A stretch of DNA of 64,000 bases from Lathyrus oleraceus (taxonomy: Eukaryota > Streptophyta > Magnoliopsida > Fabales > Fabaceae), in contig NC_066580.1 in assembly GCF_024323335.1 (NCBI RefSeq), forward strand, positions 257,152,977 through 257,216,976. The letters run 5' to 3'. This document shows positions 1-53,490 of this stretch, in pieces (position 1 is the stretch's first letter; the number at the start of each line of letters is the position of its first letter). The notes beneath the pieces are model-generated. The model was not told where the DNA came from and made no database searches. It saw only the letters and a program-made list of their open reading frames with translations. The position numbers were made by a program, and so were the translations under genes.

Positions 1-2830
1 TCAACTTGCAAAAATCCAGACTTATCCATTCGTATGCCACTACTATTCACCCACTTGCAACCAAAGATGGGAATCTGAAACTTCTCGTAATCAAACACCC
101 AAATGTGCTCAATAACTCCAAAATATGACAAATTTGCATATTTGGGGTTTAAATCCTTCATACTTGATATATGCATTGCTTCAGCTAGCACGGTGACACC
201 ACTATTTTGCATAGTACTCTTATCATCTTGTTCTTTGGTATAAAATGTGTATCCATTAATTGAATATGCGCTATGAGAAAACACATGCAAACTTGGACCA
301 TATGCCAAACATCTCAACATTTCTGTTACCGAAGAAGGATCTGAAGAGCGCTTCAAATAAATATGATCCTTCAACCATTGTATGAAACTTTGGTTGTGCT
401 CTATAACTATCCAATTTTCATTTCTGTTCGGATTTAACCTTCGGAGTACATCCTTGTGCATTTCAACATATGGCTCAACCTCATTATTATTGTGCAGAAC
501 ATACAAATGAACTTGATCCCGTTCATCCCTTGATATTGTCACAATTTTATTCCCAATTAATTTTTTACCTTCCATTTTGTCGAAAATCTGAGCTCTGGGG
601 AGTCCAATTGATTGAACGTTAGACAAATATTCAACAGCTTCTTCAACAATGTATCGTTCAACAATACAACCCTCTGGTCGACTTCGGGATTTCACGTACC
701 CTTTTAATATTTTCATATACCGTACAACTAAATGAACCATTATGTCAAAAAAAGACGGAGGAAAATACATTTCAAGCTCACACAAGGTAATTACAATCTC
801 TTTTTGTAGTGTTGGTAAGATCTCGGGATCGATCACCTTACTACAAATTGACCTAAAGAAAAAACACAATTTAGTTATGGCACTTCTTACTTTTTCTGGC
901 AAAATAGAACGTATACCTATCGGTAGAAAATGTTCCATTATAACATGGCAATCATGTGTCTTCAAATTCTTCAACTTGAGGTCTTTCATAGAAACAAGTC
1001 TTCTGATATCATATGAGTATCCTTCTGGAACCTTAACTTCACTCAGAGACTTACACAAATTTTTTTTCTCCTTTCTAGATAAAGTAAAAGCAGCAGGTGG
1101 TAGATATGTTCGTCTTCCTTTCTTCACGGGTGCTAATTCAGTTCTCATTCCCATTTTTAACATGTCCTCCCTTGCTTTAAGGCCATCCTTAGACTTGCCT
1201 TTTATATTGAGTAATGTACCGATAACACTTTCAAATACGTTTTTTTCAATATACATAACATCGAGAAAATGTCTCACGTACAAAGACTTCCAATATGGCA
1301 ATTCAAAAAATATCGACCTTTTCTTCCACCCACCTTTCACAATCTTATGTGCAAAAGGCTTGCCAAACTCAGTACGCACATCTTTCACCTTTTCAAAAAC
1401 TTGTTCACCTGACAATGCGGGTGGAGCTCTACGATGTTCGGTGTCTCCATTGAATGCTTTTCTCCACCCACGGTAGTGATGTTTAGAATGTAAGAATCTA
1501 CTATGACCGAGAAACACATTCTTCTGGCAAAGTTCCAATCGAATCGTATCGGTTCCGTCTTCACAAACAGGACACGCACGTTGACCTTTAATGCTATACC
1601 CAGATAGATTCCCGTATGCTGGAAAATCATTAATTGTGCCAAACAACATCGCCCTCAAATTGAAACTTTCTTTCCTATATCCATCATAAACCTCCACACC
1701 GTTCTCCCACAAAATCTTTAAATCTTCGATCAGAGGTGTCAAGTATACGTCTATGTCATTCCCTGGTTGTTTAGGCCCAGAGATTAACATAGATAACATC
1801 ATGTACTTACGCTTCATACATAGCCACGGAGGTAGGTTATAAATCATAAGAATCACACGCCATGTGGTATGTGAGATACTTTGAAGACCATGTGGGTTCA
1901 TTCCATCAGTAGATAATGCCAATCGAAGGTTTCTTGCTTCTGATCCAAACTCAGGATAATCATTATCAATCTTCGACCACTGTGGTGAATCAGCCGGATG
2001 CCGATACTTTCCATCAATAATTCTTTCATTTGCATGCCAAGTAAGATGTCTTGCATCGGTTTCACTATGAAACATGCGCCTAAATCTCGGAATTATCGGA
2101 AAATACCATAAGACTTTTGCGGGAGATAATCTTTTCTTATATCGAGACAAACCGCATTTAGGGCACTCAGTTAACATTGCATATTCGTTACGAAACAAAA
2201 TGCAATCGTTAGGACAAGCATGTATCTTATCATAGCTCATGCCAATAGAGCACAACATTTTTTTGCCTCATAGGTTCGATTAGGAAGAACATTATCATCC
2301 GGTAGCATTTCTCTCATAAGGGCCAACAACTCTGTGAAACTTTTATCCGACCATCCATTGCCCACCTTTAAGTTGTACAACTTTAATACCGCAGAAAGTC
2401 TTGAGAATTTAGTGCAACCTTTGTACAACGGTTTCTCTGCATCGCTTACCATCCTCTCAAACATTTCAGGACAATCATGAAGATCTTCTTCCAGTGCTTC
2501 TACAATCTCTTCAACTCGATCACAATCGTATGTTTCCGTGTCTTTGTCGTATGAAGCATAGGTCGTATTACTTTTTCCACTCGATTCAACATTCTCGTTA
2601 ATTTTCTCACCATGAAATATCCAACACTGATAACTTTGATCAATTCCATGCCTCAGCAAATGCGATTTCAATCCATGTGCGTCAACCTTACCAATATAAC
2701 AACAACGCAAGCAAGGACAATGCATTCGTCTGGGGTTTTCAGCGTGTTGAACAACATACTTAACGAATTCCGTAACCCCACTCTCTTACTCTTTGGTCAT
2801 TCGATCGGCACAGATCCATGTTTTATCCAT
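1..2830 (-). pseudogene. TNP2-type CACTA transposase pseudogene, runs off window edge
   Basis: Read on the minus strand from the ATG at 2830, the protein is collinear with the 1074-aa transposase at 18080-21304: the Transpos_assoc Cys/His region, the Transposase_21 core with a LDVM-IEKNV motif, then DUF4218 and DUF4216 regions up to the window edge. Breaks seen: a TAA at codon 15 (about 2786-2788); a one-base loss in an A-run at about 2264 that shifts frame; an in-frame loss of about 63 nt at about 722 (21 residues of the DUF4218 region, including the Met-Arg-Trp-Met stretch present in the intact copy); and a 4-residue loss about 35 residues further on. From about 2260 to base 1 the frame is otherwise open. 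Loss of function is therefore likely; the family assignment is firm. Confidence 0.9.
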
Positions 2831-3819
2831 GGTTTTCCTACTTATTAAAGTAAACAATTAAGACGAAAATACATAACTAAGGTAGTATCTTTGAATATCC
2901 TAACAATTATAAAGTTCAATTCATTTTAAACTTCAAAAACCTATACATAACCAATGTTAATATAAACTTCAATAACGTATCCGATACGCCAATATACCAA
3001 CTTTAATTACCTCATCACTTTCATTTTTTATATTACAAGAATCAAACTTTTTCTATTACAATATACCTATAACTATACCTATAACACGTTAATTTTTCTA
3101 TAACTAACTTTAATTTTCTATTACAACATTATTACTTATCAAACATAACAACTTTAATTACCTCATCACTTTCATTTTTTCTATTACAAGAATCAAACTT
3201 TTTCTTCCATTACTTTTCTCTTATCAACATTATTCTATTATCAACATTTTTCTATTATCAACATTATTACTTATCAAACATAACAACAACAATGTACCTT
3301 ATGAACTCAGTTTTCTAATCAAACATAACAACAACAATGTACCTTATTGTTTTCCTTACAAACATCAACATTTTTCTATTGTCAACTTCTAAACTCAGTT
3401 TTTATGAATCAAAACAACTTCAACAAGAATAATACACTAAACTCAGTCAACAAGATTATGCACATTCTCAACATTAGTAAACTACCGCAAGATTATAAAC
3501 ATTCTCAACAAGATTATAAACATTCTCAACATTCTCAACAAGATTATACAGTAGAAACGAAGAAATGAAGAAATATTGAAGAACATACCGCAAGAAATGA
3601 AGAACAGTAGAAATGAAAAACGAAGTCAACACCCAAATGTCGAGACACGTACGATTCTTCAAACACGTTCAATGATTGAAACCGAAAAATGGAAGTGTAT
3701 TCGTGTTCGCTGTTATGGTTTTCGCTGATAGGGTTTCAACGTTCGCAGGAGGGAAAACAAAAGAACAGAGAACGAAAATTGAAATGGAGTCTGAAATTTT
3801 ATTTTAATTAGACCTTAGA
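2831..3819. other. Non-coding 5' part of the CACTA element
   Basis: AT-rich leader region upstream (minus strand) of the transposase pseudogene. It holds short direct repeats such as cttatcaaacataacaac and, near 3480-3545, several copies of attctcaacaagattataaac. No coding sequence is supported; the short ORFs here follow the repeats. Confidence 0.6.
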
Positions 3820-4186
3820 CAGCGCTTTTGTGGAAAGCGCTTTCTAAGGTATGCCTTAGACAGCGCTTTCCAAAAGCGCTTTCTAAACCCCCCCTTAGAC
3901 AGCGCTTTTGGTTTTAATTTTTTTTTTAATTTAAAGACTTTAGACAGCGCTTTATCAAAAGCGCTGACTAAGGTCTATATTTAAAAGCGCTTTCTAAAAG
4001 CGCTGTCTAAGGGGGGGTCTTAGACAGCGCTTTTAGAAAGCGCTGTCTAAGACCCCCCCTTAGACAGCGCTTTCATTATTTTTTTGGAACATTTTCCGTG
4101 TTTTATTTTAATTTTAACCTTAGACAGCGCTTTCTTTTAAAAGCGTTGTCTAAGATGCGCTGTTAAAAGTCATTTTTGGCGTAGTG
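3820..4186. repeat. CACTA subterminal inverted repeats (AGACAGCGCTTT type) and TIR
   Basis: Many direct and inverted copies of TTAGACAGCGCTTT and AAAGCGCTGTCTAAG, several arranged as perfect hairpins (for example around 3975-4050), followed by the terminal GGCGTAGTG. In CACTA elements such subterminal repeats bind the TNPA-type protein. The core differs from that of the element at 17016-22987, which mostly uses AGAGGGCGCTTT. Confidence 0.85.
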
Positions 4187-16203: not shown

Positions 16204-17015
16204 TGACGATAAATAATCCTCTTTGATGCGTTACAATTTCTGGAAAAGAAAATTTCTCCCCTTAAGATGTATAACTCCCCCTTAATTTGTGAAGCTCATA
16301 ATCATGTGACCTTGATCATCTTGAAAGAGTATTTGTATCATTTGTACCTTAAGAAATTCACAAGCATACAAGCATAATTCATAACACCTCTCTCCCCCTT
16401 TGACATTATCAAAAAGAAGGAAAAAATGGGTGAAAGATAATATAACGACAAGTATAAAATAGAACATGCACCATAACTTGTAAAAAAACAGCCCCAAATG
16501 CATTCCAAGATTGAAATCATAAGTAATGCAAATAAACAAGGTTATGGTACCAAGTACCTTACATCAAAAAAGTTCAAATGAGAGACATAATTAAACATAA
16601 TGAAAATAATATTCTATAAGAAACATATAACATGAACAATACATACAAAATGACACACTAAGGTTGGTCCATATCATTGTTGGTGTTGTTGTAGTTGTTG
16701 CCTTGGTATGGAAATGGTTGTTGAATGGGTGTATAAAAAGGAGTGGGAGAAGCCGGGTTATTTGGATCATATGGAGGTATATTGAGATGTGAGTAGATAT
16801 ATGAAAAGTGTTGGTTCGATCGGTTTGAAGAAGGTTGATACGGATGGTGGTCGCTTCATGATTGAGCATAATTTGATTATTTGCCGAAGTCCATTGGTCA
16901 TTGATGGAGGTATTAAGGTTGGCAAATTGGGTTGTGATAAAGTCAAAGACATCTTGGTTACTTGGACCATTTGGAGGAGGAACATCTTCACCATCATCAC
17001 ATTCTTGAGGATTCT

Positions 17016-17660
17016 CACTACGCCAAAAACTGGAATAGACAGCGCCCCTTAGAGGGCGCTTTATTACAAAAGCGCACTCTAAAGTGAAGAGAAAAAATAA
17101 GGAGCGAACAACTGGAATAGACAGCGCACTTTAGAGGGCGCTTTTGTAATAAAGCGCCCTCTAAGGTGAAGCGAAAAAATAAGGAGGAGATAGAGGGACA
17201 ACAATACAGGGCGCTTTATAGAAAGCGCCCTCTAAGGTTACCCTTAGAGGGCGCTTTTAAAAAAGCGTTCTATAAGTCCATGTGCATTTCCAGTTTATAA
17301 AGCGCTTTTGGAAAGCCTTAGAGAGCGCTTTTATAAGCGCCCTCTTAGGCCCCATTTAGAGGGCGCTTTTGTAACAAAGCGCCCTCTAAAGTGAAGCCAA
17401 AAAAAAAATGGAGGGACAACAATAGAGGGCGCTTTTGTGAAAGCGCCCTCTAAGGTTACCCTTAGAGGGCGCTTTTGTGAAAGCGCCCTCTAAGGTTACC
17501 CTTAGAGGGCGCTTTTGAAAAAGCGCTCTCTAAGTCCATGTACATTTCCAGTTTATAAAGCGCTTCTGGAAAGCCTTAGAGAGCGCTTTCATAAGCGCCC
17601 TCTTAGGCCCCATTTAGAGGGCGCTTTTTTTCCACAAGCGCCCTCTAATGTCCCCTTTAG
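17016..17660. repeat. 5' TIR and subterminal repeats of the CACTA element
   Basis: More than a dozen copies of TTAGAGGGCGCTTT or its complement AAAGCGCCCTCTAA, with one AGACAGCGC copy next to the terminus. A block of about 230 bp (around 17170-17390, from gagggacaacaata to cctcttaggccccattt) is repeated at about 17410-17625. These are the expected transposase/TNPA binding regions. Confidence 0.85.
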
Positions 17661-18079
17661 TAAACATTAAAATTATAACATACTGCGCGTTTTGTTATTT
17701 CACTATCTGTTATTAGCGTTCTTTTTCACGTTAGGGTTCTGAGGCGTTTTCCTTCCACCTCTGTTAGATCTACATGCGCGTTTCCTCCTTCTACCAATCA
17801 AAGGTACACGCTTTTCCCAATTTCTGTTTTACCTTATTACTGCGCGTTTCCTCCTTCTTTTTCATGTTATTGCTTTGTTTTAGCTTTGCCCAATTTCTGT
17901 TTTACCTTATTACTGCGCGTTTCCTCCTTCTACGTTTGTTTCGACCATGATAGCGGATGCAATAGGAAATTGACTGTTGGTTTTTAGTGACCATTATAGC
18001 GCATGCAATGGGTTATACGACCTAGGTCCGAATGTGTTTGAACTCTTCTGAAATTGTTTTTTATTTATTCTAATTAGTA
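17661..18079 (+). other. Leader upstream of the CACTA transposase
   Basis: Non-coding stretch between the subterminal repeats and the transposase ATG. It contains a direct repeat of about 40 bp (cccaatttctgttttacc ... gcgcgtttcctccttct) at about 17817-17859 and 17889-17932. Promoter and transcription start are probably here, but no clear TATA box is seen. Confidence 0.5.
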
Positions 18080-21000
18080 ATGGATAATACATGGATGTCT
18101 TCCAATCGATTGTCGAGAGAGTACGAGAATGGGGTATCAGAATTCGTTAAGTTTGCCGTTGCGCACGCCGAAGACCCCAGTAGAATGATATGTCCTTGCT
18201 TGGGTTGTTGTTATGGGAAACGGGTTGACGCAGTTCAGTTGACATCGCATCTAATGAGGCATGGAATTGATCGAAGTTATACATGTTGGAATTTGCATGG
18301 TGAGAAAAGTAACGAGAATGTTGAACCGGGGGATAGTACGACCTATGCCTCAAACTATAGTGGCGCAGATACATACGATTGTGATCGAGTTGAAGAGATT
18401 GCAGAAGCACTTGAAGGAGATCTTAAGGATTGTCCCGAAATGTTTGAGAGGTTGGTAAGTGATGCAGAGAAACCTTTGTATGATGGTTGCACTAAATTCA
18501 CAAGATTGTCTGCGGTATTAAAGTTGTACAACTTAAAGGCGGGCAATGGGTGGTCGGATAAAAGTTTCACAGAGTTATTAGCCCTTTTGAAAGATATGCT
18601 TCCTGAGGATAATGTTCTTCCCAATCGAACATATGAGACCAAAAAGATGTTGTGCTCTATTGGCATGAGCTATGATAAGATACATGCATGTCCAAACGAT
18701 TGCGTTTTGTTTCGAAATGAGTATGCATCGTTAAATGAGTGTCCTAAATGCGGTGTCTCGCGATATAAGAACAAGTTGTCTCCAGCAAAGGTCTTGTGGT
18801 ATTTTCCTGTTATTCCGAGATTTAGACGCATGTTTCGTAGTGAAACCGATTCAAGACACTTGACCTGGCATGCAGATGAAAGAATTATAGATGGAAAGTA
18901 TCGACATCCGGCAGATTCACCACAGTGGTTGAAAATTGATAATGATTATCCTGAATTTGGAGAAGAATCAAGAAACCTTCGCTTGGCATTATCTACTGAT
19001 GGAATGAACCCACACGGTATCCAGAGTATCTCACACAGTACATGGCCTGTGATTATTATGATTTATAACCTACCTCCATGGCTATGTATGAAGCGTAAGT
19101 ACATGATGTTGTCTATGTTGATTTCTGGACCTAAACAACCAGGGAATGACATAGACGTGTACTTGAAGCCCTTAATCGAAGATTTAAAGATTTTGTGGGA
19201 GACCGGTGTGGAGGTTTATGATGGATATAGGAAAGAAAGTTTCAACTTGAGGGCGATGTTGTTTGGCACAATTAATGATTTTCCAGCATACGGAAATCTA
19301 TCAGGGTATAGCATAAAAGGTCAATGTGCGTGTCCTGTTTGTGAAGATAAAACAGATTGGAAGCGCTTGGAGTTTGGTCAGAAGAATGTCTTTCTCGGTC
19401 ATCGGAGATTCTTAAATTCAAATCATCACTACCGTGGATGGAGAAAGGCGTTCAATGGAGAGACAGAACAAGGCAAAGCTCCACCTATATTGACGGGTGA
19501 TCAAATTTTTGAAAAGGTGAAAGATTTGGATACTCAGTTTGGCAAGCCTTTTGCCCACACAATGGTCAAAAGTGGGTGGAAGAAGAGGTCAGTTTTTTTT
19601 GAATTGCCGTATTGGAAGTCCTTGTATGTGAGACATTTTCTTGATGTTATGCATATTGAAAAAAATGTATTTGAAAGTGTTATTGGCACGTTACTCAATA
19701 TACAAGGAAAGTCTAAGGATGGCCTTAAGGCAAGAAAGGACTTGATAGCGATGGGAATAAGAACTGAATTAGGACCCTTGAAGAAAGGAAAACGAACATA
19801 TCTACCGCCTGCTGCTTATACTCTATCTAGAAAGGAGAAAAAAACATTGTGTAAGTTTCTAAGTGAAGTTAAAGTTCCAGAAGGGTACTCTTCAGATATT
19901 AGAAGACTTGTGTCTATGAAAGACCTCAAGTTAAAGAGTTTAAAGACCCATGATTGCCATGTTATAATGGAACATTTTCTCCCAATAGGTATACGTTCTA
20001 TTCTTCCAGAAAAAGTAAGAAGCTCTATAACTAAGTTGTGTTCTTTCTTCAAGTCAATTTGCAGTAAGGTGATCGATCCTGCGATCTTACCAATGTTGCA
20101 AAAAGAAATCGTTATTACTTTGTGTGAGCTTGAAATGTTTTTTCCTCCATCATTTTTTGACATAATGGTACATCTAGTTGTTCATCTTGTGAAAGAGACA
20201 CAATTGTGTGGACCAGCTTATATGAGATGGATGTACCCTGTTGAACGTTATATGAAAATATTAAAAGGGTACGTGAAGAACCGAAGTCGACCAGAAGGTT
20301 GTATGGTTGAAAGATACATTGTTGAAGAAGCGATTGAGTTTTGTACTGAATATTTGTCTAATGTTCAGTCAATCGGACTCCCCAAGTCTCAGCTTGTCGA
20401 AAAGAAAGAAGGAAAAAATCTAATTGGAAATAAAATCGTGGCAGTATCAAGGGTCGAACGGGATCAAGTGCATTTGTATGTTCTGCACAATGAGAATGAG
20501 GTTGAGCCGTATGTTGAAATTCACAAGGATGTTCTCCGAGGTTTAAATCCCAATAGAAATGAAAATTGGATAGTACGAGAGCACAATCGATGTTTTATAC
20601 CTTGGTTTAAGGATCATATTTATTCAAAGTATTATTCAGATCCCGCTTCAATAACAGAAAGGTTGAGATGCTTAGCATATGGTCCAAGTTTCCATGTTTT
20701 TTCTTATAGCGCATACGCGATTAATGGATACACATTTTATACCAAAGAACAAGATGATAAAAGTACTATGCAGAATAGTGGTGTCACCGTGGTAGCTGAA
20801 GCAATGCACATATCAAGTGTGAAGGACTTAAACCCCAAATTTGCAAATTTGTCGTATTTTGGTGTTATCGAGCGCATTTGGGTGTTTGATTATGAGAAGT
20901 TTCAGATTCCTATATTTGGTTGCAAGTGGGTTGAAAATAATAACGGCATTCGAATGGATAAGTCAGGATTTTTGCAAGTGGATCTTAATAGGGTGGGATA

Positions 21001-21304
21001 CAAAGATGAGTCTTTTATTCTAGCCTCTCAAGCTAGACAAGTGTTCTATGTCAATGATCCGAAAAGTACGAAATGGTCTATAGTTCTTTTTTCCAACAAA
21101 GTAATTGATGAAAACACTGGAGATCAAGGTGATATTGATGTTGAGATTGAATCGTTTACCAGAAATGATCAAGATGAGAATATTATATCAAATGATTCAT
21201 ATATTAGAAATGATCATAATGAGGGTATTTGGATCAATCCAACCGTCCGTGTTGTTAAGAGACATGTAGAACATATTCCAACCAAGAAAAGAAAGAGAAC
21301 TTAG
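18080..21304 (+). CDS. CACTA transposase, TNP2/TNPD type (1074 aa, intact)
   Basis: Single open frame from ATG 18080 to TAG. Residues about 4-75 form a Transpos_assoc region with clustered Cys/His (CPCLGCC at 38-44, H57, H61). About 205-225 is a Cys-rich knuckle (CPNDC, CPKC). About 300-530 is the Transposase_21 core with STDGMNPHG (305-313), a PGNDIDVY stretch (354-361), a CPVCE site (418-422) and LDVMHIEKNV (521-530), and acidic residues suited to a DDE-type active site. About 660-780 matches the DUF4218 region and about 925-995 the DUF4216 region. A basic tail (KKRKR, 1069-1073) could be a nuclear signal. The enzyme cuts element ends in the nucleus, usually together with a TNPA-type DNA-binding protein. 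Length and domain order fit legume CACTA transposases; no frameshift or stop is seen. Confidence 0.93.
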   Translation: MDNTWMSSNRLSREYENGVSEFVKFAVAHAEDPSRMICPCLGCCYGKRVDAVQLTSHLMRHGIDRSYTCWNLHGEKSNENVEPGDSTTYASNYSGADTYDCDRVEEIAEALEGDLKDCPEMFERLVSDAEKPLYDGCTKFTRLSAVLKLYNLKAGNGWSDKSFTELLALLKDMLPEDNVLPNRTYETKKMLCSIGMSYDKIHACPNDCVLFRNEYASLNECPKCGVSRYKNKLSPAKVLWYFPVIPRFRRMFRSETDSRHLTWHADERIIDGKYRHPADSPQWLKIDNDYPEFGEESRNLRLALSTDGMNPHGIQSISHSTWPVIIMIYNLPPWLCMKRKYMMLSMLISGPKQPGNDIDVYLKPLIEDLKILWETGVEVYDGYRKESFNLRAMLFGTINDFPAYGNLSGYSIKGQCACPVCEDKTDWKRLEFGQKNVFLGHRRFLNSNHHYRGWRKAFNGETEQGKAPPILTGDQIFEKVKDLDTQFGKPFAHTMVKSGWKKRSVFFELPYWKSLYVRHFLDVMHIEKNVFESVIGTLLNIQGKSKDGLKARKDLIAMGIRTELGPLKKGKRTYLPPAAYTLSRKEKKTLCKFLSEVKVPEGYSSDIRRLVSMKDLKLKSLKTHDCHVIMEHFLPIGIRSILPEKVRSSITKLCSFFKSICSKVIDPAILPMLQKEIVITLCELEMFFPPSFFDIMVHLVVHLVKETQLCGPAYMRWMYPVERYMKILKGYVKNRSRPEGCMVERYIVEEAIEFCTEYLSNVQSIGLPKSQLVEKKEGKNLIGNKIVAVSRVERDQVHLYVLHNENEVEPYVEIHKDVLRGLNPNRNENWIVREHNRCFIPWFKDHIYSKYYSDPASITERLRCLAYGPSFHVFSYSAYAINGYTFYTKEQDDKSTMQNSGVTVVAEAMHISSVKDLNPKFANLSYFGVIERIWVFDYEKFQIPIFGCKWVENNNGIRMDKSGFLQVDLNRVGYKDESFILASQARQVFYVNDPKSTKWSIVLFSNKVIDENTGDQGDIDVEIESFTRNDQDENIISNDSYIRNDHNEGIWINPTVRVVKRHVEHIPTKKRKRT

Positions 21305-21438
21305 TGAAAAAGGTACAGGTCAAATGATTTTAATTGTTTTCTTTATTACAGGTAAAATGACTTTTATGATTTTAATTGTTTTTACATTTGTCATCTGATT
21401 TTAATTGTTTTCTTTTTTACAGGTAAAATAAGGGTTCA

Positions 21439-22067
21439 ATGTTGGCAAGTTACATTGGTTTCCTTGTTCGACAACATATTCCGATTACATGTGATAATTG
21501 GAGAAGTCCGGACTTGAAGGTTGGCAAAGAAAAAATATGGTCGGAGATACAGGTACTTACCATATATTGTTATATGTTCATAAAATACACCACTAAATTC
21601 TCTGCGTTTAATTTTTAATTTTTTTTCATCAGGCTTGTGTCTCAATAGAGGATGGGTATCTACCTAAAGTTACTTTTGTAGTGGTCCAAAAGAGACATCA
21701 CACCCGTCTCTTTCCTGTCAACCCCAAAGAGACCGATAGAAGTGGAAATATTATGCCAGGTTTTTTCAATATATTTCTCAACGCAGCTGGTATATATTAT
21801 CATTTGAATTTATCACTTTTTGCTGATTTTGTTGTTCTAAATTGTCAAAGGAACCGTGGTAGACACCAGCATTTGTCACCCTAGGGAATTTGATTTTTAC
21901 CTTAACAGCCATGCAGGAATTCAGGTAATATTAGCTATGTCATTTAACTTTATGCCATTGTTTACTATTTGTTGCTCAATCGCCTTTTGACAGTTCTGTG
22001 TTATTTGCATTTGGACGTGTTCTTTTTGCAGGGGACTACTTATGCTGCCATCTGTTGTTTTGGTTGA
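21439..22067 (+). CDS. Spliced chimeric ORF: CACTA second-ORF exon fused to captured Argonaute PIWI exons
   Basis: Four exons can be read with GT-AG borders: 21439-21552, 21633-21759, 21851-21924, 22032-22067 (stop TGA 22065-22067), 116 residues in total. Exon 1 (38 aa, from ATG) holds [18 protein letters not shown] and ends in IWSEIQ, as in the N-terminus of the second protein of legume CACTA elements. Exons 2 and 3 encode an Argonaute PIWI segment: [25 protein letters not shown], then [16 protein letters not shown] and NSHAGIQ. Intron phases (0, 1, 0) join correctly, and exon 4 keeps only the first Gly-Thr of the next Argonaute exon before diverging. The catalytic Asp residues lie upstream of the captured part and the catalytic His just downstream, so slicer activity is impossible. 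NSHAGIQ favours an AGO5-like donor, from memory. Expression is unproven. Confidence 0.8.
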
Positions 22068-22479
22068 GCCTTATTTTGTATGGATGTGCGATAGAACTAC
22101 TAGACAGCTTTTGGATACAGAACATGTTTGCCACCATGGGTGGATGGGCGTTTTTGTTTAGTATTGGTTAGAACTACTAGACAGCTTTTGGATACAGTGG
22201 TCACTGGGTGTTGGTTGCTATGTTTTATTCTCTTAATTGTAGTACTTTGAGAATATGTTGTTGTATATTGTTGATCAAAGAATCATATATTAATGTTGTA
22301 TATATGGAGGATTAATGTTGTATATAAATGGATTCATGTTGTATATATCAATGGATTAATGGTGTATAACATTGGATTAAAGGATGAAATCAATATGAAT
22401 TTTACACTTTTGCAGCATGCGAACAGGTTACCAATTAAATATATATCCACTGTTTTTCAAACAATTTTTTTTAAAATAA
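22068..22479 (+). other. 3' non-coding part of the CACTA element with a 28-bp direct repeat
   Basis: A 28-bp block (agaactactagacagctt then ttggatacag) occurs at 22093-22120 and again at 22170-22197. AT-rich sequence with repeated tgttgtatat follows at 22295-22370. No coding sequence is supported. Confidence 0.6.
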
Positions 22480-22987
22480 CTAACACTTTAGAGGGCGCTT
22501 TGTCCAGAAAGCGCCCTCTAAACACTTTAAATTGACAACATTAGAGGGCGCTTTTTCCTGAAAGCGCCCTCTAAACACTTTACTTTGACAACTTTAGAGG
22601 GCGCTTTTTCCTGAAAGCGCCCTCTAAACACTTTACATTGACACTTTAGAGGGCGCTTTTTCCAGAAAGCGCCCTCTAAACACTTTACATTGACACTTTA
22701 GAGGGCGCTTTTTGCAGAAAGCGCCCTCTAAACACTTTACATTGACAACTTTAGAGGGCGCTTTTTCCAGAAAGCGCCCTCTAAGGTGTCCCTTTATGGA
22801 CCACTCCAGAGGGCGCTTTTTTCTGAAAGCGCACTATAATGTGGCCCTTAAAGGGCCACTTTAGACAGCGCTTTCTCTAGGAAACCAAAGCGCTGTCTTT
22901 ACCTATGCCAGCGCCAGATTAGAGGGCGCTTAAAAGCGCTGTTATAGGCCAAAATAAGCGCCCTCTTTTCCCTTATTTGGCGTAGTG
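22480..22987. repeat. 3' subterminal hairpin array and TIR of the CACTA element
   Basis: At least six consecutive hairpin units of the form TTAGAGGGCGCTTT, 4-6 nt loop, AAAGCGCCCTCTAA, spaced by aacactttacattgaca-type linkers from about 22486 to 22785. Degenerate units follow, then one AGACAGCGCTTT/AAAGCGCTGTCT pair (22863-22898) and the terminal TTTGGCGTAGTG. Confidence 0.9.
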
Positions 22988-24129
22988 TCTCTTCATTTTC
23001 TTCATTATTGCCACCAATAAACATAATCATCTTTGTTTCTGGATTATACCGATAGCCCATCCGCTTGACCACATTCTTGATAGAAATCTTGTGACTTCTT
23101 GTATCCATAAGACTATACTAAAAATCATCAAAATCATCATTAAAGTATTCCATAATACGAGTGATGAACCAAGCATATGGAAGAGACTTAATCTTGGTGG
23201 TGTGAGTCATCATATGGTGAAGAATGAGACGTGCCCAATTAAGCGTAATGTCATTCTTAATAGAATACAAGGCTTGCATTTCCACATCGCTAATATTGCA
23301 ATGATTGGAATTTTTCGGGATCATAATATAAACCATGAAATATGTATCAATCTATCATTAATGAAGAAATTTCCAGCACTCCAAAAATCCTTTGGTGGTT
23401 CTTCCCCACCATGCGATTCAACCCTTTTTCATGATATTCTTATTCCTATATTCTACTCAAACAAAAATAAAATTCTCTCTTGTTATACCCCTTCCATTCA
23501 TCATCCTCTGAATCATATAAGATGCTACCACCACAAGGAATGACCAAAATTTGACCAAGTTTTTTTTGGGTCAAAGCAATCTTTTTCCCTCTAAAATGTG
23601 TAACAAATTTTCCATTCTCAATACACATGTTACAGTAAAATATTCTCACAAAATCTGGATAGTAAGGTCCAGAAGAAGTGATAAGTGAACCTAATCCTAG
23701 AAAAATTAATTTATCTTGAAAATTAAAACATTCTTCAGGAAAGGAGGAAAGATCACCGTATTTGGGGGTTTGTATTGTCTTCTTTTGATAGTACTTCTGA
23801 TATCTTTCCAAACTCTCTTGGGTGTGGTCTTTGAAGAAATGTTGAACATACATGGATGAGGATGAAGCTTTTTCTTTCCCTTTTCCAGCAGCTCCAACTT
23901 TCCTGTTCAATTTTGATGCCATGATTAAAGGTTTGGAGATAATGGAGATAAGTTTTAATGGAGTTTTTGGGTGATTTGGGAAAGATGAAATTTTTGAGTT
24001 GAAAGCACAAAGGAGACAAATTTTGGCTGCTAGGGTAAAGTGAAGAATTTTGAAAAAAAATTGGCTTTTAAATGGGAGAGAGAAGGGATGTGATTGGACC
24101 GACCAATATAAAAAAACATTAAAAAAGTT

Positions 24130-24425: not shown

Positions 24426-24603
24426 GAAAAAACTAAAACAAACGTATTTTCAACAAAGTTTCATGCGTATTATACACAATGAATCATGTATAAGAAGGGA
24501 GTAGAAGTAGAGAGCCATGAAATAAATTGAAAAAGTAAATAGTTGAGTTAGAAACGCATGTGCACCTTTGATCATTGATGTAACATAACATTATTTGAAT
24601 AAT

Positions 24604-27600
24604 TTATGTGTCTTTTTCATCCAAAATTCCAAGTTCTCTCCGAATTTTTTAGAAAGGTTCTTGTGCCAAAGGTTTTGTGAAAATGTCCGCAAGTTGATTA
24701 TGAGTATCCATAAATGTAACTTCGACATCTCCTTGAAGCACGTAATCACGAAGAAAATGATGGCGAATGTCAATATGTTTTGTTCTTGAGTGCATGACCG
24801 GATTCTTTGTCATATTTATCGCACTTGTGTTGTCACAACATAGAGGAATGCATCCAAGATCGAGTCTGTAGTCACAAAGTTATTGCTTAAGCCAGTGTAT
24901 TTGTGCATAACAGCTACTTGCTGCTATGTATTATACTTCGGCTGTGCTAAGAGCAACACATGCTTGTTTCTTTCAAGCCCATGATACTAATGCATTTCCA
25001 AGAATGTGACATGTACCACTAGTGCGCTTTCTATCAATTTTACTTCCTGCATAATCAGGGTCAGAATAACCAACTAAATTGCAAATACAACCTTTAGGAT
25101 ACCATAGGCCGAAATCCTTTGTTCCTTTAAGGTACTTCATGATCCTTTTGACTGCGGTGAGATGGGATTCCTTCGGATTTACTTGAAAGTGCTCACAAAG
25201 ATAAACACTAAACATTATGTCAGGACGACTTGCCGTCAAATATAACAAAGAACCAATCATACCTCGATATTTTATGATATCAATTGAGACACCCGGTTCA
25301 TCTTGATCAACATAAGTTCCGGATCCCATTGGAGTAGACATAGCCTTGAAATTATCCATGTCAAATCTCTTCAATAATTATTTGCAATACTTGGATTGGT
25401 TGATGAAGATTCCATCCTTTAGTTGCTTAATTTGGAGTCCTATAAAATAATTCATCTTACCCATCATGGACATTTTGAATTCTCCTTGCATCATTGATGA
25501 AAATTCTTCACAAAGTTCTTTGTTTGATGAACCGAATCATATACCATCGACATATACTTGAACCCATAACGTGTTACCTTTAATTTTATTAATAAACAAG
25601 GTCTTATCAACTTTACCTTTTTCAAATCCCTTTTCACAAAGAAATTTGCTGAGACGATCATACCATGCTCTTGGTGCTTACTTTAGGCCATAAAGAGCTT
25701 TCCTGAAATTGAATACATGTGAAGGATTCTTTAAGTCTTCAAATCCCAGGGGTTGTTTGACATAGACTTCTTCATTGATGTAGCCATTCAAGAATGCGCT
25801 CTTGACTTCCATTTGGTATCACTGAAAGTTTAATGAACATGCATAAGCAAGTAATAAACGGATAACTTCTAACCTTGCAACCGAAGTGAATGTTTCTTCA
25901 AAATCAATTCCTTCCTCTTGATTGTATCCTTGGGCCACAAACCTTACTTTGTTTCAAACAATTATACCATTCTCATCAAGCTTGTTCTTAAACACACATC
26001 TGGTACCAATGATGTGTTTACCACTTGGCTTAGGAACAAGTTCCCAAACGCAATTCCTTTCGAATTGGTTTAACTCTTCTTGCATAGCAGTTATCCATTG
26101 GTCATCACTTAGGGCTTCATTAACTTTGGAGGGTTCAATTTGCAAAACAAACGCCATATTTAAGCATGCATCTTTGAGATTTAGTCTTGTTGTAACGCCT
26201 TGACTTATATAACCAATGAATTTATCAATTGGATGATCCTGATGAGTTCTCCATTCTTTAGGTATATCATTGTCATTTGTATTTTGTTGAACTTGTTCAT
26301 CTTGATGATTGGGTTGATTATCAATGTTTGCACTTGAAGTATCTTTTTGAGGAACTTCTACAATATCATCATCATGGCACAAATAATATCCTCCTTGGAG
26401 GGGTTAGTTTCATCAAAGGTAACATGGATAGATTCTTCAATTGTTAAAGTTCTTTTATTATATATTCTATAAGCTTTACTAGTAAGAGAATATCCAAGAA
26501 ATACACCTTCTTCGGACTTTTCGTCGAACTTACCTAGATTGTCTTTGTCATTGTTGAGGATAAAGCATTTACATCCAAATATATGAAAGTGAGAAATATT
26601 TGGTTTCCTTCCTTTGAAGAGTTCATAAGGGGTCTTTTTCAAGATAGGTCTAATAATAATTCTATTACTTACCTAGCATGTCGTGCTCACCGCATCCGCG
26701 CAAAAATACTTTGGAAGATTTGAGTCACTAAGCATTCTTCTTACAAGTTCCACAAGTGACCTATTATTTCTCTCCACTACTCCATTTTGTTGAGGAGTGC
26801 TTGGTGCCGAGAAATTATGAAATATTTCATGTTCTTCGCAAAACTCTTTGAAGGAGGCATTTTCGAATTCTCCACCATGGTCGCTTCTTATGGAGGCAAT
26901 AGTTAGAGATTTATCATTTTGAATTTGCTTTGCATATTTCTTGAATGCCTTGAATGCATCACTTTTCTGCACTAAGAATAATGTCCAAGTGTATATAGAG
27001 AAATCATCAACAATAACTAAAGCATACACATTACCTCTCAAGCTTTTTGTTCTTGATGGACCAAATAAGTCCGTATGCAACAATTGTAGTGGCCTTGTAG
27101 TGGACACCACATTCTTTGATATGAAAGTTGATTTGGTTTATTTTCCCTTTTGACATGCATCACATAATCTATCTTTGACAAACTTTATCTTAGGCAATCC
27201 AATAACAAGATCATGCTTTATTAGTTTATTCAAATGTTCCATATGAATATGAGCGAATCTTTTATCCCAAAGCCATGACTTATTATTTTTTTCCATAAGA
27301 CATTTTAACTTCTAACACACGTATATTATGCTTTAGTCCTTCAACATAAAGGACATATTCAATGGATGTGAAAGGTGGTGCTCCAACTTTGCCTATACCA
27401 AGAATTCTTCCTTTGTTGTTATCACCATATGTGACATGATCCTTGGTCTTTAATGCTAGATTTGAAAATATGTTAAAGTCTCCCGTCATATGCATGGAAT
27501 AACCACTATCAAGATACCGAAGATTTGATGTGGTTTTCAAGCATACCTACAAAACAAATTAAGTTTTGTTAGGTACCCAAATTTTTTTGGTCCTTCATAA

Positions 27601-28149
27601 TTAGTGTCTTTCTTTACCCACACGTAATGCCCACTTACTATGCTAAAATTTCTAACATAGCATGCATTAGGTGTATGGCCAACTATTTTGCAATAAAAAT
27701 AAGTAGGTTCAAAATTGCTTCAATATCTAGGAACATAAGATTTCTTTTTAGGAAATATTTTCCTTTTAGGATAGTGATGAACATCTTTTGGCTTGTTCAC
27801 TTTCTCTTTGGATGGTTGGTCATTAGCTTTAACAAATATAGTTTTACTAGAACTTGGTTTGGAACACTTTGAATAACCAAGCCCACTTTTGTCATTGGAA
27901 TATATTTGTTGGCTAAGGAAACCTTCCAACCCAATTTGTCCTTTCTCATACCTTTCAAGAATCCTTTTTAATCGGACAATTTGGAAAGAAAGTGATTCAC
28001 AATTTCAATTGTCACAACTTTTTCTTCTAGAGATGAAATTAGTTTCTTTTGAGATGATATTGTTTTATACAAAATTTTCCATTCTTTAATAAGTTCATTT
28101 ATAGAACCTTGTGCATCACTATCATAAAGATAAAAATCGTTACTAACCT
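24604..28149 (-). pseudogene. Ty1/copia pol pseudogene (PR, INT, RT, RNase H)
   Basis: Minus-strand order: protease region with LDSGYSMHMTGD (about 27490-27515); integrase with LHTDLFGP, SDHGGEFEN and APSTPQQNGVVERNN (26673-27110), giving the D, D, E residues; an INT tail with ELFKGRKPNISHFHIFGCK (26590-26642); RT with VFKNKLDENG, the altered active site YVDG (25543-25554, normally YVDD) and YFIGLQI; RNase H with SASRPDI-like (TASRPDI), YSDPDYAG and [10 protein letters not shown]; stop at 24604-24606. There are more than eight in-frame stops, several explained by C-to-T change of Arg or Gln codons (for example V-stop-NK at 25954, LK-stop-APRAW near 25680), and frameshifts near 26370 and between 26673 and 27283. 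Non-functional. Confidence 0.9.
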
Positions 28150-29240
28150 CATATTCTTCATCGTCGGAATGTGTGAAGCCATTAATACTAAATTTGCACA
28201 TTCGTCGCTTTCCGATCCGGATGAAGAACTTATCTCATTATCTTCCCATGCAACATACGCCTTTTTATTCTTGAATTACTTCTTGCCTTTAAAGCCACCT
28301 TTCTTGGAGAGTTTCAGACAATCCGACTTTATATGACCTGCTTTCCACATTCATAACATGTGACATCTTGTGTATATGTGGAAGCCTCCCTTTTCCTGAA
28401 ATGTTTATTTCTTTTTGCATAAAAGGATTTGTCATTTTTACCAACAAATTTACCAAGCCTTTTAACAAGGAGCATGAAATTTTCATCTTCCTCCGGTGCG
28501 CCATCATCTTTATTATCCTTTGAGTCTACCTTCAAAGCATTTCTTTTGGATTTCTTCTCTTGACTTTCATGATTTTCAAGTCTTCCAAGTTCAAGTTCAT
28601 GTTCTTGGAGTTTTCCAAATAATGATGTGGACGTCATAGTAGAAGGACTTTTCTTCTCCGATATGGTCGTTACTTTTGGTTGCCATTCTCTAGTCAAGGA
28701 TCTTAGCACTTTAAGGTTGAGATCATCATTTGTAAAGGTCTTTTCGAGAGCAATTAAATGATTCGTCAAGTGAACAAATCTTTTACGTAAAGCAACAATG
28801 GATTCTCCATGTTGCATTCTAAATATTTCATATTTTTGACTCAATGTGTTTAATCTGGATCTTTTAACTTCAACCGTTCCTTCGTGAGTCTCCACCAAAG
28901 TGTCCCATATTTCTTTAGCCAATTTAAATTGAGATATGCAGAAGAACTCATTCATACTTAATGCACTTTGAATAATATTTATAGTTTTATTTTCATTAAG
29001 TATTCTTTTCTTATCATCTTCATCATATGAACTTTTAACCTTTTGAGTGCACATACCATTGACCACCCTAGTTGGATTATGTGGACCATTTTCAACGATT
29101 TCCCATATACCATCTTCTTTTGCTTCTAAATGTGCTTTCATGCGGATTTTCCAAAAGTTAAAATATTCTCCAGAAAAAAGAGGGGGTTTGTTGCTACTAC
29201 AACCATCTTGGAAAACCAGGTTTGCGCTTGCGGAAGTCAT
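28150..29240 (-). pseudogene. Ty1/copia gag pseudogene
   Basis: ATG at 29240; open for 303 codons to 28329. It shows the typical start with NKPPLFSGEYFNFWKIRMK, the capsid helices with AKEIWDTLVETHEGT and VKRSRLNTLSQKYEIFRM, and LKVLRSLTREWQPKVT. A basic region then leads to a zinc knuckle that starts CYECGK, but a one-base loss at about 28340-28346 shifts the HIKSDC half into another frame. The acidic/serine-rich region downstream continues in shifted frames. The gag would package element RNA; this copy is broken at the knuckle. Confidence 0.85.
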
Positions 29241-29266
29241 CTTCTAGATCTAAGGAGCAAGTTAAC

Positions 29267-49012: not shown

Positions 49013-49119
49013 GTCGGTCGAGTCGAGTCGTAATTATTCTGTTTCCCTGTATGTGATAGGTGTTGTGTAACCCTATCAGTACTTATTATTTTAGTTTGTT
49101 GGATTAACTCAGAATAGAG

Positions 49120-52100
49120 ATGGCTGGAAGAGGTAGAGACGATGCTGCGATTGCTGAGGCTCTGGGTATGCTAGCTGGAGTACTTGGAGGGAATCCGAAT
49201 GTTGTGGGATTGGGAGCTGCTCGTCAACTGAGTGAGTTCCAGAGGAACAATCCTCCAATGTTCAAGGGAGCATACGATCCAGATGGTGCTCAGAAGTGGT
49301 TGAAGGAGATCGAGAGGATCTTCCGAGTGACTGAGTGTGCCGATAACCAGAAGGTCAGGTTCGGTACGCATATGCTGTCAGAGGAAGCAGATGATTGGTG
49401 GGTTGCTGCCCGCACTGAGTTGGAAGCTGCTGGAAGTGCTGAGATCACTTGGGCGGTGTTCAGAGAGAGATTCCTGAGGAAGTACTTTCCAGAGGATGTC
49501 AGAGGAAAGAAAGAGATAGAGTTCTTAGAATTGAAGCAGGGCAACCGGTCTGTTACTGAGTATGCTGCTAAGTTCACAGAGCTGTCGAAGTATTACACTC
49601 CCTATGATGAGGCTACTGGGGAATTTTCAAAATGTGTGAAGTTTGAGAACGGGTTACGTCCCGAGATCAAGCAGGCTATTGGGTATCAGCGGACTAGAGT
49701 GTTTTCTGACTTGGTTGACTGTTGCAGGATTTTTGAACAGGATACCAAGGCCAGAGCGGAGAGCTATCAGCAGAGGGTTGATAGGAAAGGCAAGAATCAG
49801 AATGATCGTGGGAAACCATATGCAGCTGGCAAAGGTTTCCAAAGACAGAGTGGGATGAAGAGACCTAGTGGGGGAGACTCCAGTGCCCCTGCTAAGTGTT
49901 ACAGATGTGGTCAGGCTGGACATCGTATCCATGAGTGTACCAGTGCTGAGAAGAAGTGTTTCAAGTGTGGGAAAGGTGGTCACTTGGCTGCAGAGTGCCG
50001 GTTGAAGACTATGACTTGTTTCAACTGTGGAGAGGTGGGTCATATCAGTCCACAGTGTCCTAAGCCGAAGAAAGAGAACCAGTCGGGAGGCAAGGTCTTT
50101 GCTTTATCGGGTTCTGAGACTTCTGCAGATGATCGTTTGATCCGAGGTACGTGTTATATTAATGGCTTTCCTCTTGTAGCTATTATTGACACAGGTGCGA
50201 CTCATTCCTTTATATCTTTGGATTGTGCTGTGAAACTTAAATTAGAGATATCTGAGATGCATGGGGGTATGGTGATTGATACTTCTGCGAAGGGTTCAGT
50301 GACTGCTACTTCAGTTTGTTTGAATTGTCCTTTGAGTATTTTTGGTAGAGACTTTGGGATGGACCTCGTGTGTCTTCCACTAGTGCAGATTGATGTTATC
50401 CTGGGTATGAACTGGTTGGTGTTTAACCGAGTTTATATCAACTGTTTTGATAAGACTGTGATCTTTCCTGAGATTGAGGAAGGAAAGAGTTTGTTTCTAT
50501 CAGCAATGCAGGTGAATGAGGCAGTAGCAGATGGGGCAGAGTTGTTTATGCTGTTAGCGACTTTGGAGGCTAAAGATAAACTGGTGATCTGCGATCTAGC
50601 CGTGGTGTGTGATTTTCCTGATGTGTTTCCTGAAGAAGTGAATGAATTACCGCCAGAGCGTGAAGTTGAGTTCTCGATTGATTTGGTACCTGGTACTAGG
50701 CCGATATCGATGGCTCCGTACCGTATGTCTGCTGTTGAGTTAACTGAATTGAAGAGTCAGCTAGAAGATCTGTTAGATAAGAAATTTATTCGTCCGAGTG
50801 TGTCACCGTGGGGCGCACCAGTGTTATTGGTTAAGAAGAAAGAAGGTACTATGAGGTTATGTGTGGACTACAGGCAACTGAATAAAGTGACGATCAAGAA
50901 TCGGTATCCTTTGCCGAGGATTGATGATTTGATGGATCAGTTGGTTGGTGCGAGTGTGTTCAGCAAAATAGATTTGAGATCGGGGTATCATCAGATACGT
51001 GTGAAAACTGAGGATATTCAGAAGACTGCTTTCAGAACAAGGTATGGACATTATGAGTATTCTGTAATGCCTTTTGGTGTGACTAATGCACCTGGGATAT
51101 TTATGGAGTATATGAATAGGATTTTCCATCCGTACCTAGACAAGTTTGTTGTGGTGTTTATTGACGATATTTTGGTGTATTCAAAATCTGAAGAAGAGCA
51201 TGCTGAACATTTGAGAGTGGTTTTAGGAGTTCTACGAGAAAAGAAGTTATTTGCTAAACTGTCCAAGTGTGAATTTTGGTTAGAAGAGGTTAGTTTTCTT
51301 GGTCATGTGGTTTCAAGAGGTGGTGTTGCTGTTGATCCTTCTAAGATAGAAGCGGTATCTAAGTGGGAAGCTCCGAAGTCAGTTTCTGAGATAAGGAGTT
51401 TTCTTGGACTTGCAGGTTATTATAGGAAGTTCATTGAGGGATTTTCTAAGTTGGCGTTACCGTTGACGATGTTGACTAGAAAGGGGCAAGCGTTTGTTTG
51501 GGACTCAAAATGTGAAGAAGGTTTCCAAGAGTTAAAGAGAAGGTTAACTACTGCTCCTATTCTGATATTACCAAGTCCGTCGGAACCATTTGAGGTTTAC
51601 TGTGATGCTTCATTGTTGGGTTTGGGTGGTGTTTTGATGCAGAATAAGCAGGTTGTAGCTTATGCTTCGAGACAACTGAAGGTTCATGAGAGGAACTATC
51701 CGACACACGATTTAGAGTTGGCAGCTGTGGTATTTGTTCTGAAGTTATGGAGGCATTACTTGTACGGGTCAAGATTTGAGGTTTTCAGTGACCATAAAAG
51801 TTTAAAGTATTTGTTTGATCAGAAAGAGCTGAATATGAGACAGAGGAGATGGTTAGAGTTTCTGAAGGATTATGACTTTGGTTTGAATTACCATCCGGGT
51901 AAAGCAAACGTAGTGGCTGATGCCTTGTGTCGGAAATCATTGCATATGTCTATGTTAATGGTTAAGGAATTGGATTTAATTGAGCAGTTTAGAGACTTGA
52001 GTTTGGTGTGTGAGAGTACTCACAATAGTGTTAAATTGGGAATGTTGAAGTTAACGAGTGGTATTCTGGATGAGATTAGAGAGGGTCAGAAATCCGATGT

Positions 52101-53490
52101 GCTTTTGGTTGATAAGTTGACTCTAGTGAATCAAGGTCAAGGTGGTGAATTTAGAGTTGATGAGAATGGTGTTTTGAAATTTGGTAATCGGGTGTGTATT
52201 CCGGATGTTACCGAACTTAAGAAGAGTATTCTTGAGGAAGGACATCGTAGTGGCCTGAGTATTCATCCTGGGGCTACGAAGATGTATCATGATTTGAAAA
52301 AGTTATTTTGGTGGCCGGGAATGAAAAGAGAAATTGCGAGTTTTGTTTATTCTTGTTTGACTTGTCAGAAGTCAAAGATTGAGCATCAGAAGCCGTCTGG
52401 GCTAATGCAACCGTTGGCTATTCCAGAGTGGAAGTGGGATAGTATCAGTATGGATTTTGTTTCTGGTTTACCGAGGACAATTAAGAATTTTGGAGCTATT
52501 TGGGTGATTGTTGACAGATTGACAAAATCAGCTCATTTCATTCCGATCAGAATGGATTATCCGTTAGAGAGATTAGCTGAGTTGTATATTGAGAAAATTG
52601 TAAGTTTGCATGGTATTCCGTCGAGTATTGTTTCGGACAGAGATCCTAGATTTACATCGAAGTTCTGGGAAGGTTTGCAGAAGGCTTTGGGAACTAAGCT
52701 GAGATTGAGTTCTGCATATCATCCGCAGACTGATGGTCAGACTGAGAGGACGATTCAGTCACTGGAGGATCTTTTGAGGGCTTGTGTTTTGGAAAAGGGA
52801 GGTGATTGGGATTGTTATTTACCTTTGATTGAGTTTACCTACAACAATAGTTTTCATTCGAGCATTGGTATGGCACCGTTTGAAGCTTTGTATGGTAGGA
52901 GATGTCGGACACCTTTATGTTGGTATGAGTCCGGTGAGAGTGCTGTGGTTGGACCGGAGATTGTTCAACAAACTACGGAAAAGATTAAGATGATTCAGGA
53001 GAAGATGAGGATTGCTCAGAGTCGTCAGAAGAGTTATCACGACAAGAGGAGGAAGTCACTTGAGTTTCAAGAGGGAGATCATGTGTTTCTTCGTGTTACT
53101 CCGATAACTGGGGTTGGTCGAGCTTTGAAGTCGAAGAAGTTGACACCTCGATTTATTGGTCCTTATCAGATTTTGGAGAGGATAGGGGAGGTAGCCTATC
53201 GTATCGCTTTACCGCCGTCACTTGCGAATTTGCATGAGGTTTTTCATGTGTCTCAGTTGAGGAGGTACATTCCTGATCCGTCGCATGTGGTCCAAGTAGA
53301 TGATGTACAGGTGAGAGATAACCTGACTGTTGAGACATCACCTATGAGGATCGAGGATCGAGAGTTGAAGCAGTTGCGGGGTAAAGAGATTGCTTTGGTA
53401 AAGGTAGCTTGGGGAGGACCAGCAGGTGGCAATGTGACTTGGGAACTTGAGAGTCAGATGAAGGAGTCTTATCCAGAGTTATTCGCTTGA
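49120..53490 (+). CDS. Chromovirus gag-pol polyprotein (1456 aa, intact)
   Basis: Single frame from ATG (49120) to TGA. Gag capsid about 45-210 ([21 protein letters not shown]); three CCHC knuckles at 260-273, 280-293 and 300-313; protease with DTGATHSF (357-364); RT about 500-700 with the FIDD active site (680-683); RNase H with D829, E866, D891; integrase zinc residues H1042, H1049, C1079, C1082 and the D1112, D1173, E1209 triad with D-35-E spacing; GPY motif near 1347; C-terminal chromodomain-like region about 1405-1455 ([29 protein letters not shown]), a form seen in Tekay/Del elements that lacks some aromatic cage residues. It would be cleaved into capsid, protease, RT/RNase H and integrase. 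No breaks. The start is the first ATG after the primer-binding site. Confidence 0.95.

Follow-up and report, generated by a model that had tools for sequence, protein, structure and literature searches.

The CACTA element and its surroundings

The window, i.e. the whole stretch of 64,000 nucleotides from Lathyrus oleraceus (taxid 3888, also named Pisum sativum in protein records) that was analysed in this study, harbours at 17016-22987 a complete CACTA (En/Spm-type) element of 5972 bp. Its main features are the following:

17016-22987, plus strand: CACTA element with the terminal inverted repeats (TIRs) CACTACGCCAAA and TTTGGCGTAGTG, 12 perfect bases, and the target-site duplication (TSD) TCT on both sides
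17013-17015, unstranded: left TSD, TCT
17047-17659, unstranded: left subterminal repeats, AGAGGGCGCTT and its inverse (motif counts, inverted repeats)
18080-21304, plus strand: ORF of a TNP2-type transposase, 1074 aa, uninterrupted (Pfam domains)
22484-22966, unstranded: right subterminal repeats (motif counts, inverted repeats)
22988-22990, unstranded: right TSD, TCT

Of the characteristics of CACTA (En/Spm) elements, it shows TIRs beginning with CACTA, a 3-bp TSD, a TNP2-type transposase and subterminal repeats at both ends. CACTACGCCAAA starts on the plus strand at 17016 and its inverted counterpart ends at 22987. When the window was searched with the 18-base pattern of the right end, allowing up to 3 mismatches, the one further match was the left end itself (3 mismatches), and shuffled controls gave 0.01 matches on average and 1 at most. 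Within the element, 16 copies of the motif AGAGGGCGCTT and 15 of its inverse were counted, confined to the two end regions with 8 and 8 copies left of 17700, 8 and 7 copies right of 22450 and none in between. In Pfam, the transposase ORF matches Transposase_21 (PF02992; 8.5e-93), DUF4218, DUF4216 and Transpos_assoc. Its nearest relatives among the best 120 of 2143 matches are metagenome proteins of 1069 aa (P0121-P0125) with 6 to 8 differences, 6 mismatches being counted for P0122 in BLASTP. As judged from this reading frame, the element encodes a full-length predicted transposase.

Rejoining the empty site in silico left open frames of 183 aa (minus strand), 260 aa (plus strand) and 94 aa (minus strand) across the joint. 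The 183-aa ORF supports a clean insertion, and this support is only mild because the two other frames are open as well and the 183-aa ORF showed no Pfam match. The insertion site itself is probably old transposon sequence, since a frame in the right flank matches Transposase_32 weakly, under the Pfam cut-off.

Further mobile elements were observed in the window. A second CACTA element of a related subfamily lies on the minus strand at 1-4186 and shares the CACTACGCCAA end, at 4186. It is about 86% identical to the first element at the DNA level over two stretches, its transposase, present in two pieces, is 96-98% identical to P0127, and it is cut off by the start of the window short of the position where AGO5 would lie. 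Besides, an uninterrupted frame of 1460 aa at 49108-53487 (plus strand) has gag, aspartyl protease, reverse transcriptase, RNase H and integrase-type domains and looks intact; we take it to be a Ty3/gypsy-like polyprotein. Remains of a copia-type retrotransposon were seen on the minus strand at 24600-29243, with a gag domain (PF14223, 8.9e-22) at 28332-29243 and the rest judged by eye.

Argonaute exons in the second gene

Downstream of the transposase, the element carries a chimeric second gene with the following parts:

21439-21552, plus strand: second-gene exon of the transposon itself (similarity to CACTA proteins)
21553-21632, plus strand: intron, GTACTT...CATCAG, 80 nt
21633-21759, plus strand: captured AGO5 exon, ACVSIEDG...GNIMP plus the first base of the following Gly codon; from residue 822 on the same as pea AGO5 (P0249)
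21760-21850, plus strand: captured AGO5 intron, phase 1, GTTTTT...TCAAAG, 91 nt
21851-21924, plus strand: captured AGO5 exon; no difference to P0249 up to residue 888
21925-22031, plus strand: captured AGO5 intron, phase 0, GTAATA...TTGCAG, 107 nt
22032-22038, plus strand: beginning of the next AGO5 exon (seven bases, GGGACTA); about here the similarity to AGO stops
22039-22067, plus strand: non-AGO end of the chimeric frame, stop at 22065-22067

According to the initial annotation, exons from an Argonaute PIWI domain had been captured at 21439-22067. This interval coincides exactly with the spliced chimeric CDS (exons 21439-21552, 21633-21759, 21851-21924 and 22032-22067; 351 nt, 116 aa plus stop), whose introns of 80, 91 and 107 nt are in phases 0, 1 and 0 and follow the GT-AG rule in three of three cases. 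In this CDS the second-gene exon of the transposon splices in frame into AGO exons in sense orientation. The claim of captured exons holds for two complete AGO exons (21633-21759 and 21851-21924), whereas the exon 21439-21552 belongs to the transposon and not to AGO; likewise, the count of two is right for complete exons, but the seven bases GGGACTA of a third one are also present. Here the donor reads on with GTSRPTHYHVL and the window diverges. Intron 21553-21632 is probably a hybrid, with its GT side from the transposon gene and its AG side from AGO5, and the left capture junction is presumed to lie inside it.

The exon 21439-21552 matches CACTA proteins directly. Similar results were obtained with the annotated pea protein P0248, whose second-gene region contains the window exon and aligns with the CACTA proteins P0164 of Orobanche (42% over 66 aa) and P0186 of Trifolium (36% over 70 columns). 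The alignments of P0164, P0186, P0174 and P0150 extend over the second-gene exon, beyond which these proteins have non-AGO sequence, and in P0186 Transposase_24 and Ulp1-protease domains follow farther downstream. A candidate remnant of the Ulp1/C48 protease tail (HWVLVAM, 22202-22222, compared with P0164) scored 20.8 bits and was rejected, 2 of 20 random window stretches having scored at least 20.8. Between the transposase and the second-gene exon we observed a 40-base direct repeat (21319-21358 and 21390-21429; 92.5%) that ends in CAGGTAAAAT. This repeat may mark a deletion of the first exon of the second gene. The upstream second-gene residues of P0248 had no match in the window.

The chimeric product matches the Pfam Piwi domain with 4.7e-22 and covers only positions 175-244 of the 302 of PF02171. 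The best solved relative of the AGO part is 'Protein argonaute 10' (PDB 7sva, E 1.2e-29), presumably the Arabidopsis protein. Moreover, the two complete AGO exons are identical at 67 of 67 residues to residues 822-888 of P0249, the full-length 'protein argonaute 5 [Lathyrus oleraceus]' of 986 aa. Over the same residues the identity amounts to 64/67 for AGO5 of Lathyrus sativus, 63/67 for Vicia faba, 62/67 for Trifolium repens, 61/67 for Vicia villosa and 60/67 for Sesbania. P0249 ranks ninth by E-value among the best 120 of 3247 matches, behind P0248 and seven fish, citrus, fungal and millet proteins with 63-83% identity. Since P0249 and the chimera P0248 alone reached 100% identity among these best 120 of 3247 matches, P0249 was taken as the donor, an assignment made at the amino-acid level. 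A capture after the pea lineage had split from L. sativus is the simplest reading because the match is complete in pea and lower in L. sativus and V. faba, and the protein comparison suggests that the capture was probably recent and took place in the pea lineage. An exact 30-base pattern from the AGO exons gave no match in genome_contigs and viral_contigs, and the single confirmed viral_contigs match (L001) comprised 21 residues at 61%.

The full-length P0249 matched the window in tblastn (E up to 1e-3) at 21624-21924 only, with residues 822-888 of 986. Regarding the AGO5 clade of Argonautes, homology to a PIWI segment is thus present, whereas the N, PAZ and MID domains and a complete PIWI domain are missing. 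Because the match is confined to this interval, the segment is not an ordinary AGO gene. The main claim of the initial annotation, a CACTA transposon carrying Argonaute PIWI exons, is borne out by the TIRs with their TSD, by the Piwi domain and by the full identity to pea AGO5; the expected Argonaute similarity of the translated exons and the position of the segment inside a TIR-bounded element were likewise found.

The initial annotation had also proposed that genomic DNA and not cDNA was captured. Indeed, the protein sequence of the donor runs on without a break at the points of the GT-AG introns in the window, and the captured DNA is therefore considered genomic. The intron positions of pea AGO5 were derived from the window itself and are presumably those of other plant AGO genes. 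Alternatively, the segment could be a cDNA retrocopy of AGO5 with later introns, or a decayed AGO gene that was invaded by CACTA sequences. We found no evidence in support of this idea, against which stand two complete introns with canonical sites and correct phases at points of donor continuity as well as the absence of any other part of the 986-aa AGO5 from the window. A retrocopy and an ordinary AGO gene were rejected on account of these introns and of the confined AGO5 match, and the probability of such an origin is close to nil. Accordingly, a genomic capture by the CACTA element is well supported by the sequence comparison. In our opinion it is very probable that, in the pea lineage, genomic DNA of AGO5 entered the second gene of a CACTA transposon and replaced the continuation of that gene.

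Related chimeras in pea

We compared the element with 360 related proteins (P0001-P0360), which are the best 120 of 382, the best 120 of 2143 and the best 120 of 3247 matches. Seven of the 360 carry a transposon motif together with the AGO motif VTFVVVQKR: P0001-P0005 and P0248 are six pea protein clusters with 14 member sequences and P0072 is a metagenome cluster with 3 members, counts that refer to annotated proteins, maybe of more than one assembly, and do not equal the genomic copy number. In the six pea clusters second-gene sequence is joined to AGO5 sequence. Among the 360 proteins the AGO5 chimera is therefore found in pea-named and metagenome proteins only. The longest contigs of the pea chimera clusters are of four different sizes, and the donor P0249 lies on a contig of a fifth size. 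An assembly artefact was rejected on account of these several separately annotated pea chimeras. P0248 gives the best independent confirmation of the chimera, as this single annotated pea protein unites 378 residues from the C-terminal end of the transposase, 375 of which agree with the window, with the second-gene exon and AGO5. Moreover, the C-terminus of pea P0002 is nearly the same as that of the window chimera (GTTYATICCFG).

P0003 and P0248 retain more AGO5 than the window copy. P0003 has 118 AGO5 residues, of which 117 are identical to P0249, and then continues into sequence that is present at 22152-22220 of the window. The window copy is therefore probably a shortened derivative, in which the right end of the AGO piece would be a later internal deletion. 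Just downstream of the AGO piece we observed an exact 29-base direct repeat (AGAACTACTAGACAGC...) at 22092-22120 and 22169-22197, which may be left over from the rearrangement by which the piece was shortened. The sole difference of P0003 to the donor is S912C, with S in the captured copy and in four of five other legumes, I in Sesbania and C in P0249 alone. Given this shared S, the capture may predate the change in the donor.

The joints differ among the copies as well. In P0003, P0004, P0005 and P0072 the start of the second gene borders immediately on the last part of the AGO intron (EDQLIFFHQ, followed by ACVS or TCVS), and the left joint of P0002-P0005 differs from that of the window. The annotated proteins P0001 and P0072 read into the intron, with 2 and 1 differences to the window over 84 positions, respectively. 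Most simply, the copies would be mosaic derivatives of one capture. The AGO5 piece may have entered once, either by faulty repair of a gap in the transposon or by the route of tandem insertion and aberrant excision proposed for Pack-CACTA elements, of which the tandem insertion is described in PMC13317346. It would then have spread along with the element, and later internal deletions would have led to the shorter copy in the window.

Alternatively, the chimeric protein might be produced and interfere with silencing as a decoy or dominant-negative factor, or it might alter the product of the second gene. The open frame and the intact splice sites would allow its synthesis, and the listing of P0001 as 'isoform X1' of a named locus may hint at transcript support. 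However, a PIWI fold is unlikely to form from 67 residues. The AGO part matches the structure of 'Protein argonaute-2' (e.g. 4ola) at chain residues 688-760, a range that excludes all four catalytic residues of human AGO2 (D597, E637, D669 and H807). As joints differ or the intron is read in other copies, selection for one protein is disfavoured. We consider such a role of the protein very unlikely. Even if transcribed, the 116-aa chimera could hardly work as an Argonaute, because only 67 of 986 residues are spanned. Most likely, the captured exons would ride as passive cargo of the transposon.

Possible effects on silencing and comparison with known systems

The captured exons could also act at the RNA level, an idea which the initial annotation had put forward as speculation. 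Small interfering RNAs from the multi-copy element might match the AGO5 mRNA or gene, lower AGO5 activity and thereby aid the transposon, similar to rice, where miR820 encoded on CACTA elements targets the silencing gene OsDRM2 (PMC3459959). The identity of all 67 captured residues to the donor and the existence of several related chimeras are in agreement with this idea, and an effect through RNA is possible given the close match to the donor at the protein level. On the other hand, the AGO exons are read in sense, and it is at the protein and not at the DNA level that the donor is known to be identical. Besides, there was no second copy of the AGO segment in either orientation within the window beyond a 14-base chance match, and the segment (21633-22038) folded no better than shuffled sequences (z of +0.39 and +0.18 for the two strands); it therefore shows no stable hairpin precursor of the miR820 type. 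AGO5 is not known to act as the principal Argonaute in RNA-directed DNA methylation, which also speaks against an action of this kind. On balance, an RNA-level effect on the donor appears very unlikely.

In a wider form of this idea, the pea CACTA family would use the captured AGO5 as an anti-silencing device: its many mobile copies would give rise to siRNAs or chimeric transcripts that dampen AGO5 in the cells where the transposon moves. We regard this as very improbable. If it were true, the spread of the family would be tied to its cargo, and AGO5-dependent traits such as reproductive development and nodulation would vary with the copy number among pea lines. An influence of AGO5 on rhizobial symbiosis has been reported for legumes (PMC5748670, PMC9714512).

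Among the open-access papers listed, as judged from titles and the openings of abstracts, we recognised none on an Argonaute fragment inside a CACTA element, and neither PMC8903248 nor PMC13317346 uses the word 'argonaute' in its main text. Transduplication, the best-supported account for the element in the window, is already known for CACTA elements as such, and the donor, a silencing gene, is an apt one here. It could be tested cleanly here whether a silencing gene is affected by its own mobile copies, in a crop in which both the donor and the chimeras are annotated. Moreover, transposon copies could raise the number of AGO genes counted in pea, because the transposon-borne proteins P0002, P0003 and P0004 (98, 188 and 112 aa) are labelled 'argonaute 5' in the public pea annotation.

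The capture of host genes by CACTA elements in several plants, to which the initial annotation had referred, is established for soybean, Arabidopsis, maize and Chenopodium (PMC8903248, PMC8978399, PMC1947982). The CACTA elements with miR820 resemble the pea element in carrying sequence that matches a host silencing gene; yet they are described as encoding a microRNA against OsDRM2, whereas the AGO segment of the window is without a hairpin signal (PMC3459959). In KIU genes of Vandal elements a captured Ulp1 domain is fused to VANC, so that here, too, a host domain is joined to an accessory gene of the transposon. According to the report, KIU genes are conserved across eudicots and tied to anti-silencing (PMC13317346), in contrast to the AGO5 chimera, which among the 360 proteins occurs in pea-named and metagenome proteins only. 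For Chenopodium, a complete CACTA-like element was described that carries fragments of a host gene (Neprosin); the AP2 fragments reported there lie outside the CDS in the 5' region, whereas the fragment in the window lies in frame in the second gene and derives from a silencing gene (PMC8978399).

Pack-CACTA elements, which belong to the Pack-TYPE transposons, likewise have host coding DNA between CACTA TIRs that is multiplied by transposition (PMC8903248). Host gene DNA is found between the TIRs of the pea element as well (21633-22038). However, Pack-TYPE elements are defined as non-autonomous in that work and lack a functional transposase gene, while the pea element encodes a full-length TNP2 transposase; because of this predicted protein of 1074 aa it is not a Pack-CACTA element by the published definition. 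Finally, Tgm-Express1 of soybean is also a legume CACTA element with pieces of host genes including exons and introns, and its captured exons are reported to be spliced into chimeric transcripts (PMC1947982). Tgm-Express1 is described with five unrelated fragments, whereas the element in the window carries one AGO5 piece, in frame, next to an uninterrupted transposase ORF.
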